Below, piece by piece: positions 50,375-55,899 of a stretch of DNA of 64,000 nucleotides (position 1 is the first letter of the stretch; every line of letters begins with the position of its first letter). Source of the stretch: Streptomyces sp. HPF1205 (GTDB taxonomy: Bacteria > Actinomycetota > Actinomycetes > Streptomycetales > Streptomycetaceae); contig NZ_JAINVH010000006.1 in the NCBI RefSeq assembly GCF_020400825.1, forward strand, positions 1 through 64,000, read 5' to 3'. The translations under genes were made by a program, and so were the position numbers. The notes under the pieces are model-generated. The model was not told where the DNA came from. It did not search any database and saw only the letters and a program-made list of their open reading frames with translations.

Positions 50375-51262
50375 TCAGACCGCGAAGTAGTGCCCCTTGT
50401 CCAGGTCCTCCAGCAGGCCCGGGCCGGTCGGCCGCCAGTCCAGGAGCTCGCGGGTCAGCGCGGCCGAGGCCGGCTGGTCGACGGACAGGACCGTACCGAG
50501 GAAGCCGAAGTCCTCCGCCGGGCGGTAGACCGCCGGCACGCCGAGGTGCCGGCCGATCACCTCGGCCATGTCGCGGATCGCCACACCCTCGTCGCCGACC
50601 GCGTGCAGCATCGTTCCCGCCGGGGCCCGCTCGACGGCGAGGCGGAACAGCCGCCCGGCGTCGGACACGTGGACCGCGGGCCAGCGGTTGGAGCCGTCGC
50701 CCACGTAACCGGCCGACCCCTTGTCCCGGGCGTCGGCGACGAGCCAGGACACGAAGCCCTTGTCCCCTTCGCCGTGCACGGTCCTGGGCAGGCCCACGAC
50801 GGACGAGCGGACGCCGCGCGCGGCCATGTCCAGCACCGCCGCGGCGTTCGCGGCCCGGCCCGCGATGGGGGAGCCGGCCGGGTACCGCGGCCGGTCCCGC
50901 TCGGTCGCCACCTCGCCCGGGACCGCGGGCGTACCGGAGGCGATGACCAGCGGCTTCCCCGTGCCCTCCAGCGCGGCGCCGAAGGCCGCGATCGCGCGGG
51001 CGTCGGTCTGCACCGAGGCCTCGAACCGGGAGAAGTCGTGGACGAAGGCGAGGTGGACGACCGCGTCGCACTCGGTCGCGCCGGTCCGCAGGGTGTCCAT
51101 GTCGTCGAGGCCGCCGCGCAGCACCCGCGCGCCCCTGGCGGCGGCGACCTCGGCCGAGGAGTCGGACCTGGCCAGCGCGAGAACCTGGTGGCCGGCGCCG
51201 ATGAGCTCGGGCACGACGGCCGATCCGACCCAGCCGGACGCGCCTGTGACGAATATCCGCAT
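50375..51262 (-). CDS. NAD(P)-dependent epimerase/dehydratase-type extended SDR
   Basis: This has 295 residues from ATG 51262, with GGGAGG five bases upstream. The Rossmann motif TGASGWVGS (residues 6-14) and the atypical-SDR pattern (CDAVVHLAFVHD, SGTPAVPGE) place it among NAD(P)-binding, isomerase- or reductase-like proteins. The YxxxK catalytic pair is not obvious, which is usual in the atypical group. It is divergent from a TetR gene; two palindromes between them make it the probable target. Confidence 0.87.
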   Translation of the reverse strand: MRIFVTGASGWVGSAVVPELIGAGHQVLALARSDSSAEVAAARGARVLRGGLDDMDTLRTGATECDAVVHLAFVHDFSRFEASVQTDARAIAAFGAALEGTGKPLVIASGTPAVPGEVATERDRPRYPAGSPIAGRAANAAAVLDMAARGVRSSVVGLPRTVHGEGDKGFVSWLVADARDKGSAGYVGDGSNRWPAVHVSDAGRLFRLAVERAPAGTMLHAVGDEGVAIRDMAEVIGRHLGVPAVYRPAEDFGFLGTVLSVDQPASAALTRELLDWRPTGPGLLEDLDKGHYFAV

Positions 51263-51274
51263 GGGAACCTCCCT

Positions 51275-51326
51275 GATGTCAGTAACTGTCATCAGAGTAG
51301 CACGAGTGATGCCAGGGACTGTCATC
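51275..51326. promoter_or_regulatory. Two operator copies for the first TetR regulator
   Basis: GATGTCAGTAACTGTCATC (51275-51293) and GATGCCAGGGACTGTCATC (51308-51326) are 19-bp imperfect palindromes of the same design, with centres 33 bp apart (about three helical turns). They lie between the divergent start codons and cover both candidate promoters. Confidence 0.75.
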
Positions 51327-51329
51327 ACG

Positions 51330-51335
51330 TATGAT
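51330..51335 (+). promoter_or_regulatory. -10 box of the first TetR gene
   Basis: TATGAT lies six bases before the ATG at 51342, so the message would be leaderless. The second operator copy ends three bases upstream of it. Confidence 0.5.
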
Positions 51336-51341
51336 CGGCCC

Positions 51342-52025
51342 ATGGGGAGATGGGAGCCGAACGCGCGAGGACGCCTGGCGGAGGCGGCCATGAGGCTGTA
51401 CGCCGAGCAGGGATTCGAGCGGACCACGGTCGCCGAGATCGCCGAGGCGGCGGGGCTGACCGAGCGGACCTTCTTCCGTCACTTCGCCGACAAGCGCGAA
51501 GTCCTGTTCTACGGAACGGAGATGGCGCTGGACATGCTCACCCGCGCCATCAGGCAGGCCCCGGCCTCGGCGTCCCCGATGGACGCGGTGGGTGCCGCGC
51601 TGGAGTCGTTCGGCGCCTTCTTCGAGGAGGACCCGGAGCGCGTCCGGCGCCGGGAGGCCGTCGTCTCCACCAGCACGGAGATGCGCGAACGCGAGCTGGT
51701 CAAGCTGGACGCCTTCGCCTCGGCGATGGCCGGGGCGCTGCGGGAGCGCGGCACCCCCGAGCCGACCGCCGTCCTGGCCGCGGAGGCGGGCATGGCGGCT
51801 TTCAAGGTCGCCTACGCCCGCTGGGTGGCTGCCGCGCCCGGTGCCGCGCCCGCCGCCGCGTCCGGCGACTCGGGCGCGGCGGGGGAGGCGGAGAGCCGGG
51901 ACGGCGCGGGCGGCGCGGGCGGAACGGATGGTGCGCCAAGCGGTGGCGAGCGGGATCTGCCGGGCCTCTTCCGCGCCTCGCTGGCCCGGATGGGGCAGAT
52001 CCTGGCGGACCGCGCGTCGGCGTAG
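51342..52025 (+). CDS. TetR-family regulator
   Basis: The 227-residue protein has an N-terminal TetR helix-turn-helix (residues 10-55, AAMRLYAEQGFERTTVAEIA and GLTERTFFRHFADKREVLF). The C-terminal ligand domain carries an Ala/Gly/Ser-rich insertion near residues 165-200 that is probably disordered. It is divergent from the extended SDR gene and should repress it and itself through the two 19-bp sites. The ligand is unknown. Confidence 0.9.
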   Translation: MGRWEPNARGRLAEAAMRLYAEQGFERTTVAEIAEAAGLTERTFFRHFADKREVLFYGTEMALDMLTRAIRQAPASASPMDAVGAALESFGAFFEEDPERVRRREAVVSTSTEMRERELVKLDAFASAMAGALRERGTPEPTAVLAAEAGMAAFKVAYARWVAAAPGAAPAAASGDSGAAGEAESRDGAGGAGGTDGAPSGGERDLPGLFRASLARMGQILADRASA

Positions 52026-52082: not shown

Positions 52083-52871
52083 TTACGCCGCCTTCAAGGT
52101 GCCGCCGTCGATGACGTGGTCGGCGCCATGGATGTTGGCGGCCCGCTCCGAGAGCAGGAAGGCGACCAGGTCGGCGACCTCCTCGGGTTCGGAGACACGG
52201 CCCGAGGCGATGCCGAACTGTGCCGGGATGCCCGTGAGGAGGTCGGCGTGGGGGACGCCGAAGGCCTCGGCGACCCTGCCGCCGAAACCGTTCGGGTCGG
52301 TCCACAGCGGGCTCGCGACCACGCCCGGCGAGACGGTGTTGACGCGCACCCCGCGCGGCGCCAGTTCCTCGCTCAGCCGCTTGCCGAACATGGTCAGCGC
52401 CGCCTTGGCCTCGGCGTAGCCGACCGGCGAACCCGTGGACACGCGGGCGTTGATGGACGAGATGTTGACGATCGCGCCCTTGCGTTCCAGCAGGCTGGGC
52501 AGCGCCGCCTTCGTCGTCCATACCGCGCTGAACAGGTTGAGGTCGAAGACCGCCTGCCACTGCTCGTCGGAGGTGCCCAGGAAGCCGCCCAGGGACAGCC
52601 GGTCCGGGTCGCCCGCGCCCACGTTGTTGACGAGGAAGTCGATCCCGCCGACCGCCTCGACGGCCCGCTCGACGACCTGCGTCGCGCCCTCGCGGGTGCT
52701 GAGGTCGACCGCCACGGTCGCGGCCGCGGCCTTCTCCAGTTCGGGGGTGACGGTACGGGCGGCGCCCACCACCCTGACGCCCTCCGCGGCCAGGGTCCGT
52801 GCGACGGCGAGTCCGATGCCGCGGCTCGCGCCGGTGACGAGGGCGGTCTTTCCATTGAGTGCGAGGTCCAT
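52083..52871 (-). CDS. Short-chain dehydrogenase/reductase
   Basis: This 262-residue classical SDR has TGASRGIG (residues 14-21), NNVG in place of NNAG near 91, a catalytic Ser in NISSINARVS and the Tyr/Lys pair in GYAEAKAAL. The C terminus AANIHGADHVIDGGTLKAA is typical. GAAAGG lies six bases before the ATG. It is downstream of a TetR gene on the same strand but separated by a terminator, with its own operator-containing promoter. The substrate is unknown. Confidence 0.92.
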   Translation of the reverse strand: MDLALNGKTALVTGASRGIGLAVARTLAAEGVRVVGAARTVTPELEKAAAATVAVDLSTREGATQVVERAVEAVGGIDFLVNNVGAGDPDRLSLGGFLGTSDEQWQAVFDLNLFSAVWTTKAALPSLLERKGAIVNISSINARVSTGSPVGYAEAKAALTMFGKRLSEELAPRGVRVNTVSPGVVASPLWTDPNGFGGRVAEAFGVPHADLLTGIPAQFGIASGRVSEPEEVADLVAFLLSERAANIHGADHVIDGGTLKAA

Positions 52872-52883
52872 GACGACCCTTTC

Positions 52884-52899
52884 TTGAACTCTAGGTCAA
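52884..52899 (-). promoter_or_regulatory. Operator of the second TetR regulator at the SDR gene
   Basis: TTGAACTCTAGGTCAA is nearly the same as the palindrome ahead of the TetR gene itself (TTGACCCTGAGGTCAA at 53537). On the minus strand it contains TAGAGT, a possible -10 box of the SDR promoter, 13 bases before the start codon region. Confidence 0.7.
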
Positions 52900-52912
52900 A
52901 AACTTGGGTACG

Positions 52913-52933
52913 AAAAAGGCCCCGGTCGGGGCC
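52913..52933 (-). terminator. Terminator of the second TetR gene
   Basis: On the minus strand GGCCCC, a four-base loop, GGGGCC and then TTTTT follow the TetR stop by eight bases. It is short but canonical, and isolates the SDR gene from TetR transcription. Confidence 0.7.
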
Positions 52934-52941
52934 CGGTTACG

Positions 52942-53517
52942 TCACAGGCAGGCCAGTGCGGTGTCGATGATCCCGTAGAGGTCCGCCCGGTCGAGGGTCT
53001 TGGTCATGACGCGCAGGCCCGCGATGGTGTTCATCAAGAAGCGCGCCTGCGCCTTGGCGTCGACGCCGGGAGCGACGTCGCCGTCCCGCCGGCCCCGCTC
53101 GATGCGGGCCGTCAGCAGCTCGATGGTGCGCTCCTCCATGCGGCGGACCGCTCGGGTGGCCTCCTCGTCCTGCCCGCCGAGCTCCAGCGCCGTGTTGACG
53201 GCGAGGCAGCCGCGCCTGACCGGCCCGTCCAGGTCCGCGTCCACGAGCAGGACGAGGTAGGCGCGGATGCGCTCCCTGGCCGTGCCGGGCCGGTCGAGGC
53301 ACTCCTCGGTCAGCTCGGCGCCGGCGCGGCTGTAGTGGTCCAGTGCCTTGCCGAACAGTTCGCGCTTGGAGCCGAAGGCGTTGTAGAGGCTGCCCTTGGC
53401 CACGCCGGTGGCCTCCGCGAGGTCGGCGGGGGATGTGCCGGCGTAGCCGTTCGTCCAGAACGCCTCCATCGCCCGCGCGACCACCGTGTCCGCTTCGAAG
53501 TTCCTCGGCCTGCCCAT
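52942..53517 (-). CDS. TetR/AcrR-family regulator
   Basis: The 191-residue protein has a helix-turn-helix at residues 10-55 (AMEAFWTNGYAGTSPADLAE, GVAKGSLYNAFGSKRELF) and a C-terminal domain with RRGCLAVNTALELG, a pattern seen in regulators of reactive-compound and multidrug responses. A 17-bp-spaced promoter upstream gives a leaderless message. It probably represses itself and the downstream SDR gene through shared TTGACC/GGTCAA palindromes. Confidence 0.92.
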   Translation of the reverse strand: MGRPRNFEADTVVARAMEAFWTNGYAGTSPADLAEATGVAKGSLYNAFGSKRELFGKALDHYSRAGAELTEECLDRPGTARERIRAYLVLLVDADLDGPVRRGCLAVNTALELGGQDEEATRAVRRMEERTIELLTARIERGRRDGDVAPGVDAKAQARFLMNTIAGLRVMTKTLDRADLYGIIDTALACL

Positions 53518-53523
53518 GTACGT

Positions 53524-53552
53524 ACCGTACGAGTATTTGACCCTGAGGTCAA
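53524..53552 (-). promoter_or_regulatory. Leaderless promoter and operator of the second TetR gene
   Basis: On the minus strand TTGACC (53552-53547), a 17-base spacer and TACGGT (53529-53524) form a good promoter, with six bases to the ATG at 53517. The palindrome TTGACCCTGAGGTCAA (53537-53552) covers the -35 box. Confidence 0.75.
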
Positions 53553-53562
53553 GAAGGTGTGA

Positions 53563-54441
53563 TCACGAGCACGGACCGGCGTCGTGCCGGGCCGTGCTCC
53601 GCGGCCTCGCCCAGGAGGCCAGCAGGCGCAGCGCGGTCTCCGACGGCGAGCCCTTCTCGACGGTGTGCGCCACCAGCGCCTGGTCCGGGTCGTCGGCCAG
53701 CCGCAGCGTCTCGAAGGCGAGTTCCAGCTCGCCGACGACCGGGTGGCGGTAGACGTACCGGCCGTGGGTCTTGTCCTTGAGCCGGTGCTGCGCCCACAGG
53801 GTGCGGAACTGCGGGCTGGCGGCCTGGAGCTCGGCGATCAGCTCGACGGTCCGCGGGTCGTCCGGATGGCGGGCCGCGTCGAGCCGCAGGTAGGCGGCCA
53901 CGGCGGCGGCCTTTCCCGGCCAGTCGGCGTACAGGCCGCGCATCCCCTCGTCGAGGAACACCAGCCGGGCCATGTTGCGCTCGCGCGGCGGCAGCGCCCC
54001 GAAGTCGGTTATCAGGGCCGCCGCGAGCGGGTTCCAGGCGACCACGTCGGTGTTGCGGCCGAGCACGAACGACGGAACCTCGGACTGCTCCAGCAGCCGC
54101 CGCAGCCCCGGACGCACTGTGCAGGGCGTCGGCTTCCCGCCCTCCGCGGTCTCCGGCCAGGGCCGGGCCAGCCGGTACAGGTGCGAGCGCTCCACCGGGT
54201 CCAGCCGCAGGGCGCGGGCGACCGCGTCCAGCACCTCCTCGGAGAAGTGCAGCGTACGGCCCTGCTCCAGGCGCACGTAGTGGTCGACGCTCACCCCGGC
54301 CAGCCGGGCCAGCTCCTCGCGGCGCAGCCCCGGCACACGGCGGCGCCCCCCGCAGTCGCGCAGCCCCAGTTCCTCCGGTCGCAGGCGTGCCCGGCGCGAT
54401 CGCAGGAACTCCCCCAGTTCGGCGCGTCGGTCCAGTGTCAT
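53563..54441 (-). CDS. XRE-family regulator with MmyB-like ligand-binding domain
   Basis: The 292-residue protein begins ELGEFLRSRRARLRPEELGL, then RRVPGLRREELARLAGVSVD and HYVRLEQGR, the characteristic helix-turn-helix of this group. Residues 105-285 form the PAS-like MmyB domain (VPSFVLGRNTDVVAWNPLA, FLDEGMRGLYADWPG, RYVYRHPVVGELEL), which in relatives binds a fatty acid or other lipid. Such regulators usually control a nearby SDR or transporter gene. It faces the TetR/SDR pair in the same orientation with 45 bases between. Confidence 0.92.
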   Translation of the reverse strand: MTLDRRAELGEFLRSRRARLRPEELGLRDCGGRRRVPGLRREELARLAGVSVDHYVRLEQGRTLHFSEEVLDAVARALRLDPVERSHLYRLARPWPETAEGGKPTPCTVRPGLRRLLEQSEVPSFVLGRNTDVVAWNPLAAALITDFGALPPRERNMARLVFLDEGMRGLYADWPGKAAAVAAYLRLDAARHPDDPRTVELIAELQAASPQFRTLWAQHRLKDKTHGRYVYRHPVVGELELAFETLRLADDPDQALVAHTVEKGSPSETALRLLASWARPRSTARHDAGPCS

Positions 54442-54784: not shown

Positions 54785-55594
54785 TCAGACGGTGCCGTCC
54801 TCCCACCACCAGGACTGGGCGCCGTACGCGTACTCGACCCGGCTGTCCATGTGCTGCCAGGAGTGGGAGTACGACTCCAGGCCGGAGAAGCCGCTGCGCT
54901 CGCCGATCTCGTAGAGGGTCTTGGTGGCGACCCCGGACACCACGATGTCGGCGGCGATGCCGTACTGGTGCTGGGAGTTGGTCGCGTAGCCGTAGATGCT
55001 CGTGTTGTAGGCGACGCTGCGGAAGCCGGAGTTGACGGTCACCGGCTTGCCGCCGGCCTTCTTGCGGACCGCCTCCAGCTTGTACATCAGGCGGCGGACG
55101 TTCGCCTTGACGGTGGCCGAGCCGACCTTCCCGCCGGAGAAGCCCGAGCCGTCGTGGCTCCAGAACTCCGACCAGTCGAAGTGCGCGGTCGAACCGTCGC
55201 TCTTCTCCAGGGAGTTGAGCACCGACTGGGTCTGCGGGCCGACGACGCCGTCCGCGCTCAGTCCGTACGCGGCCTGGAAGCGCTTGACGGCGGCGGCCGT
55301 ACCGGGCCCGAAGTCGCCGTCGACGGCGACGTAGGAGTGCGAGGCGGAGTCGGCGGCCCAGCCGGCCACCCGTATCTGCAGTTCCGTCACCGCCGCCCCG
55401 CTCGACCCCTGCTGCAGGGTGCCGCCCCAGCCGTACGCGGCGGCCGGCCCGGCCAGCGCGAGGCCGGAGACGGCGGCCAGCCCGGCGCCGGTCAGCGCGC
55501 CGGCGCCGTAGCGCAGCAGGGAGCGGCGGTCCAGGCGGGCCGGCACGGGCGTCAGGGGCGTCAGGGGCGAAGGGGTGTCGCTCACGTCACTCAT
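54785..55594 (-). CDS. Secreted zinc D-Ala-D-Ala carboxypeptidase (M15A) with peptidoglycan-binding domain
   Basis: This has 269 residues from ATG 55594 (GAGG seven bases upstream). The twin-arginine leader DRRSLLRYGAGALTGAGLAA predicts Tat export. A peptidoglycan-binding domain (about residues 60-120; VDGDFGPGTAAAVKRFQAAY) is followed by the M15A catalytic domain with zinc ligands in SQHQYGIAADIV (His and Asp) and SWQHMD (His). The organisation equals that of the Streptomyces albus G carboxypeptidase. It trims the terminal D-Ala of wall pentapeptides. Confidence 0.9.
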   Translation of the reverse strand: MSDVSDTPSPLTPLTPVPARLDRRSLLRYGAGALTGAGLAAVSGLALAGPAAAYGWGGTLQQGSSGAAVTELQIRVAGWAADSASHSYVAVDGDFGPGTAAAVKRFQAAYGLSADGVVGPQTQSVLNSLEKSDGSTAHFDWSEFWSHDGSGFSGGKVGSATVKANVRRLMYKLEAVRKKAGGKPVTVNSGFRSVAYNTSIYGYATNSQHQYGIAADIVVSGVATKTLYEIGERSGFSGLESYSHSWQHMDSRVEYAYGAQSWWWEDGTV

Positions 55595-55899
55595 GAGGGT
55601 TCCTCGAAGGGTTCGCGGGCGGGCTGCTCTCCGGCCGCGGCGCGGCCGTCCCCATTCTTGACGCGGTCCGGTCAGTTCATGCATCGCGCGTAGATGAACT
55701 TCCGGCGGAGGCGGCGCAGCGACGTGGCGACGTGGCGACGTGGCGACGTGGCGGCGCGGTGGCGCGGTGGCGCGGTGGCGCGGTGGCGCCGGGCCGCGCG
55801 AGGGGCGACACGGTGACCGGTAAATGACCGCTTGCCGTATTTGACGGGTTATGTGGTTTACGTTCGTGCTGCTCCCTGAACGGAACGAGGAGGCACCCG
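55595..55899. other. Divergent interval between the carboxypeptidase and transporter operon 2
   Basis: No gene is present. It holds the inverted repeat AGTTCAT (55674-55680) / ATGAACT (55694-55700), the compound 8-bp repeat, and an AT-richer tract (about 55820-55865, TTGCCG, TTGACG and TTTACG) that probably contains the promoter of operon 2. Confidence 0.5.
55721..55784. repeat. Compound 8-bp tandem repeat
   Basis: Four perfect copies of GACGTGGC (55721-55752) are followed directly by four perfect copies of GGCGCGGT (55753-55784). The switch from one unit to the other keeps the 8-bp phase. It lies about 40 bases upstream of the likely promoter of operon 2. Confidence 0.85.

Follow-up and report, generated by a model that had tools for sequence, protein, structure and literature searches.

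Organization of the locus

The window analysed here, a stretch of 64,000 nucleotides from Streptomyces sp. HPF1205, contains a gene for a TetR-family repressor that is followed in tandem, 70 bp downstream, by a gene for a short-chain dehydrogenase/reductase (SDR). A candidate operator lies ahead of each gene, and a terminator-like hairpin is found between them (Table 1). Family membership of the repressor is indicated by matches to TetR_N (47.3 bits, cut-off 24) and to the broad family TetR_C_13 (49 bits, cut-off 27). A structure model made from the single sequence is all-helical, with nine helices and a mean pLDDT of 70.6; it places Cys104 in the helix spanning residues 99-112, with low confidence around this residue. 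The enzyme is a classical SDR by its domain match, the TGxxxGxG motif and the catalytic N-S-Y-K residues. At least 40 of the 41 SDRs aligned retain N112, S139, Y152 and K156; two loci (L051 and L058, see below) are excluded from this count.

Table 1. Genes and candidate regulatory elements at the TetR-SDR locus (positions within the window)
Feature	Position	Strand	Basis and remarks
Short-chain dehydrogenase/reductase (SDR) gene	52083..52871	minus	262 aa; Asn112/Ser139/Tyr152/Lys156 kept
SDR operator, TTGAAC-TCTA-GGTCAA (minus strand TTGACCTAGAGTTCAA)	52884..52899		pattern match, one mismatch; kept in homologues with the same asymmetry
Terminator-like hairpin, 7-bp GC-rich stem and T tail (TTTTT)	52917..52934	minus	scan; 3' of the TetR gene
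TetR-family repressor gene	52942..53517	minus	191 aa; TetR_N and TetR_C_13; Cys104 in an RGC motif
-10 element TACGGT of the TetR gene	53524..53529	minus	ATG follows after 6 nt; transcript predicted to be leaderless
TetR operator, perfect TTGACC-N4-GGTCAA (TTGACC-CTGA-GGTCAA)	53537..53552		pattern match; conserved in homologues
-35 element TTGACC of the TetR gene	53547..53552	minus	fits the NTGACC consensus (PMC4895711)
MmyB-like (MLTR_LBD) regulator gene	53563..54441	minus	domain match; directly upstream of the TetR gene

Homologous loci

Protein searches at the thresholds used yielded 53 homologous TetR genes, drawn from nine loci, 38 of 394 family genomes and 10 of 394 class genomes (4 of the latter already among the 38). 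Forty-seven loci (L016-L062), including the window's own (L025), were read, and six lower-scoring matches from family genomes were left out. The counts given below come from related loci selected for the similarity of their TetR, and thus measure conservation rather than independent events; the shuffled controls ignore kinship. All 47 TetR upstream sequences differ from one another, and the named hosts include Amycolatopsis, Glycomyces, Labedaea, Kribbella and Sinomonas.

An SDR gene is located directly downstream of the TetR gene, in tandem, in 43 of the 47 loci. The four exceptions are heterogeneous: the TetR of L024 is only 35% identical and its operator has 4 mismatches, L046 and L062 have operators with 3 and 2 mismatches, respectively, and L056 retains a perfect operator despite having no SDR. 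Among the remaining loci, the SDR of L058 is distant (31%) and that of L051 aligns in two pieces; the SDR start was extrapolated in these two and falls off a start codon in both. The arrangement recurs in related bacteria and looks real, if of an ordinary kind. The sequence-only reading of this DNA as a two-gene TetR-SDR switch appears well supported at this level, with conservation in most of the 47 loci.

No TetR match at E 1e-40 was found in the 34 other genus genomes that were searched, so the pair appears to be patchily distributed within the genus and may have been acquired. SDR homologues that are 52-54% identical occur in five of these 34 genomes. They were rejected as examples of the same module since they are not accompanied by the matching operator pair; in two of the five, the TetR encoded close by is a more remote one (38-42%).

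Predicted promoter and operator of the TetR gene

Read on the minus strand, the upstream region of the TetR gene consists of the -35 word, a spacer of 17 nt, the -10 word and a further 6 nt before the ATG at 53517. A scan of the locus for E. coli sigma-70 promoters found none, and the actinobacterial consensus was used in its place. Promoters of S. coelicolor carry NTGACC at -35 and TANNNT at -10, about 21% of its mRNAs are leaderless, and the leaderless genes named include TetR regulators (PMC4895711). The earlier description of the two elements as consensus-like is appropriate with respect to this consensus, but not to the sigma-70 model.

In leaderless genes of bacteria, TANNNT is located about 12 bp upstream of the start (PMC3160421). 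At 42 of the 47 loci read (all except L024, L046, L050, L061 and L062) the motif ends 6-7 nt ahead of the start codon of the TetR gene, compared with 2.1% of shuffled sequences. A match of at least 4 nt to the Shine-Dalgarno core is present in 3 of 47 TetR leaders vs 41 of 43 SDR leaders. The TetR gene of the window itself combines a -10 element at the distance typical of leaderless genes with the lack of a Shine-Dalgarno sequence. A start without a leader had been proposed from the single sequence and is borne out as a layout by the comparison; this predicted layout seems correct, yet ordinary for the group.

The palindrome TTGACC/GGTCAA, which was said to overlap this promoter and to be perfect, is indeed exact and covers the -35 element together with the 5' part of the spacer. 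With its NTGACC and TANNNT elements and its predicted lack of a leader, the gene resembles the leaderless TetR-family genes of Streptomyces excerpted from PMC4895711; it differs from the description given there in that an operator overlaps the -35 element, with the left half of the operator doubling as the -35 word. Since the usual -35 word is itself TTGACC (PMC4895711), only the right half of the palindrome and the site ahead of the SDR gene argue for an operator. The operator has no mismatch in 22 loci, 1 in 13, 2 in 8, 3 in 3 and 4 in 1; thus, 35 of 47 loci have 0-1 mismatches. A conserved inverted repeat over the gene's own promoter, as expected for autoregulation, is found with no more than two mismatches in 43 of 47 loci, or 42 of 46 once the window is set aside, vs 0.13% of base shuffles. 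The recognition stretch of the protein, GSLY(N/H), is kept in 46 of 47 loci, and the single exception, L024, is also the locus with the worst operator match.

Intergenic region and second candidate operator

The second site is found directly upstream of AAGAAAGGG, the ribosome site (Shine-Dalgarno region) of the SDR gene. It had been called the SDR gene's own copy of the operator. The site is present, but it is an imperfect copy, with one mismatch and an asymmetry at position 12 that is kept among the homologues. Matches with no more than three mismatches occur in 40 of 43 loci (39 of 42 without the window; about 3.1% when shuffled), with 1 mismatch in 13 loci, 2 in 12, 3 in 15 and 4 in 3. Located with the symmetric pattern, 35 of 43 SDR sites have T at position 12 (GTTCAA, not GGTCAA), compared with 5 of 47 TetR sites; the count for the SDR sites is 36 of 43 when the locating pattern already holds the T. 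When the SDR sites are located with this T-holding pattern, their self-complementarity falls short of that of the corresponding TetR site in 36 of the 43 loci, matches it in 6 and exceeds it in 1. The simplest reading is that the SDR operator would be bound more weakly than the TetR operator. The kept asymmetry presents a small, testable puzzle on graded repression.

The hairpin downstream of the TetR gene was the one match of a terminator scan over 3.5 kb, where 0.7 are expected, and this is not significant by itself. Hairpins with a T-rich tail are present in 22 of 43 homologous intergenic regions, however, vs 4.5% of base shuffles. Such hairpins are real but not general among these regions, and the earlier view of a terminator isolating the TetR gene from the SDR gene is overstated and, as a general feature, unsupported. 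In the window, no promoter belonging to the SDR gene itself is recognisable. A conserved promoter of the SDR gene was sought among the 43 loci and none was found: TANNNT occurs in at most 6 of 43 at any one place, and in 6 of 43 in the centre of the operator (positions 7-12). The claim that all parts of the circuit can be read from the sequence was, to this extent, an overstatement.

The lack of a conserved -10 element upstream of the SDR gene, the restriction of terminator-like hairpins to about half of the regions, and the position of the SDR operator between hairpin and ribosome site would all suit a single TetR-SDR transcript initiated at the TetR promoter. The hairpin would then terminate transcription only in part, and the second operator would be a roadblock to read-through polymerase instead of the means of shutting a separate SDR promoter. 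We regard this as rather unlikely, given that the hairpins exceed chance where they are present, and that a 7-bp GC-rich stem followed by TTTTT should stop many transcripts at this point. Streptomyces promoters can also lack a clear -10, which is present at 80.4% of S. coelicolor start sites (PMC4895711). A more elaborate version is a conserved, graded two-operator circuit without an SDR promoter, in which a strong symmetric site controls the leaderless repressor gene, while the selectively weakened T12 site, placed after a leaky terminator and ahead of the SDR ribosome site, serves as a roadblock. Production of the enzyme would then increase earlier than that of the repressor, but this version appears improbable to us. 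Separate blocking of the two genes through the two operators is the reading followed below.

Occurrence of the operator in the window and the genome

The window contains six sites with no more than two mismatches to the operator, whereas its shuffled versions have a mean of 1.0 and none of 100 reached six. Only the two sites of Table 1 have 0 or 1 mismatch, and the TetR site is the sole exact match in the 8.4-Mb genome. A wider regulon was sought in this genome allowing one and three mismatches. With 0-1 mismatches there was no genome-wide excess of the operator (15 per strand vs 20 for a reversed control pattern). A longer pattern derived from the conserved core ranked the two local sites first genome-wide, and showed no genome-wide excess either (10 and 12 vs 13 and 16 for the reversed control). 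Thus, the claim of operators is confined to the two local sites, and nothing points to a regulon beyond them. A TTGACC-N2-GGTCAA signal reported in PMC545781 was considered as a counterpart and rejected, as it represents an FNR-like site found in other bacteria and differs in its spacing.

The invariant cysteine and candidate inducers

Cys104 is invariant in the 47 loci, whereas Cys73 and Cys190 are not conserved. Among proteins of solved structure the best relative of the repressor is CifR (E 7e-27), next comes an unnamed TetR (2i10), and NemR is found at E 7e-10. Cys104 aligns with a CifR cysteine that is Cys in 6nsn and Ser in PDB 6nsm. By this alignment with CifR, the repressor has a conserved cysteine at the position in the C-terminal domain that is typical of sensors of the CifR/NemR type.

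CifR of Pseudomonas aeruginosa is an epoxide-responsive TetR repressor of cif that is released from DNA by epoxides (PMC8244358), and a reference title cited in the same paper gives it two binding sites. CifR controls an adjacent gene for a detoxification-type enzyme (PMC8244358), as is predicted here. The two systems differ in that cifR and cif are divergent and cif encodes an epoxide hydrolase, while the genes here are in tandem and the enzyme is an SDR, in the window as well as in 43 of 47 loci; the repressor is thus not a CifR orthologue with a divergent Cif-type epoxide hydrolase. The recognition stretch is also different (PPSLYAAF in CifR, KGSLYNAF here), so the operator need not match that of CifR. 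NemR and AltR share with the present system autorepression through an inverted repeat, one key cysteine and stress-tolerance neighbours (PMC13178969), features that are predicted here. NemR is a distant match and is described as co-cistronic with nemA, and the AltR operator, CAATCTAC-N6-GTAGATTG, is unlike TTGACC-N4-GGTCAA (PMC13178969). DitR (PMC9342713) was tried as a further comparison and set aside on account of its different operator and 15.9% identity to NemR. Among the literature matches listed, no description of this TetR-SDR pair or its operator was recognised, which is weak evidence of absence.

Release of AltR by thiosulfinates requires Cys100, and AltR represses itself through its inverted repeat (PMC13178969). 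Together, these comparisons suggest that the repressor is likely a thiol-based electrophile sensor acting through Cys104. Induction by reactive aldehydes or quinones is plausible because Cys104 is invariant and because of the kinship to CifR.

Small ligands are commonly bound by TetR regulators. A ligand bound non-covalently, such as a substrate or product of the SDR (e.g., a keto metabolite), might therefore be sensed in place of electrophiles, and Cys104 may be structural. The best NCBIfam match of the repressor, the ScbR group, is in line with this, although the match is sub-threshold (55 bits vs a cut-off of 150). The presence of Cys104 in 47 of 47 loci, its alignment with the cysteine that is replaced by serine in 6nsm and the dependence of AltR induction on Cys100 point the other way. 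We hold the non-covalent alternative to be a real contender but the less probable one, and retain the thiol-based sensor.

Proposed regulation

The gene pair, both sites and their conservation, the predicted leaderless layout and the invariant cysteine are all read from the sequence. On this basis, we propose with good confidence a two-gene stress switch in which TetR blocks its own gene and the SDR gene through the two operators, is released via Cys104 or its pocket, and is restored as the SDR converts the inducer. A TetR dimer would bind TTGACC-N4-GGTCAA over its own -35 element and spacer and block its own leaderless promoter, and would block expression of the SDR at the presumably weaker, asymmetric site just before the ribosome site. 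The probable trigger is a reactive small molecule or an oxidant that reacts with Cys104 or occupies the C-terminal pocket, whereupon the repressor would leave the DNA. From the alignment of Cys104 with a CifR cysteine and the precedent of AltR, release through Cys104 would be expected for a reactive compound, itself a substrate of the SDR. Repression would return once the SDR has reduced or oxidised the inducing compound. As its operator is readable across actinomycetes, this compact pair of repressor and enzyme lends itself readily to inducer screens and to trials as a small leaderless sensor in high-GC hosts.

Neighbouring genes

The switch had also been described as self-contained, which is only partly right: the MmyB-like gene, on the same strand, stops 10 bp short of the TetR -35 element, and no terminator was found by the scan between this gene and the TetR gene. 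The MmyB-like gene is probably not part of the module, but could read through into it. MmyB-like genes often adjoin SDR genes (PMC3406030), and from this and its position the regulator might be imagined to exert the main control over the two genes, through either read-through or binding, with TetR in a secondary role. This seems very unlikely, since a relative was seen near only two of the 47 loci, the window's own and L059, where it is divergent (38 of the loci were covered with just 1.5 kb of flank), and loci lacking such a relative retain the TetR-SDR pair together with both operators.

The closest relative of the MmyB-like gene in the genus is in genome G015 (73%) and contains one in-frame TGA. 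It lies in a 19-kb stretch of G015 that matches the DNA of the window only over the region of the MmyB-like gene and in one short, distant piece. Neither gene of the pair has a match in G015 (thresholds E 1e-40 for TetR and E 1e-70 for the SDR).

Further along the window, a second regulator gene at about 51340-52025 (plus strand), TetR/AcrR-like by eye, is convergent with the SDR gene. It is divergent from a gene of the NAD-dependent epimerase family (50375-51427, minus strand), and the two are a possible further regulator-oxidoreductase pair. The product of the gene at 54785-55684 (minus strand) combines a peptidoglycan-binding domain with a peptidase M15 domain.
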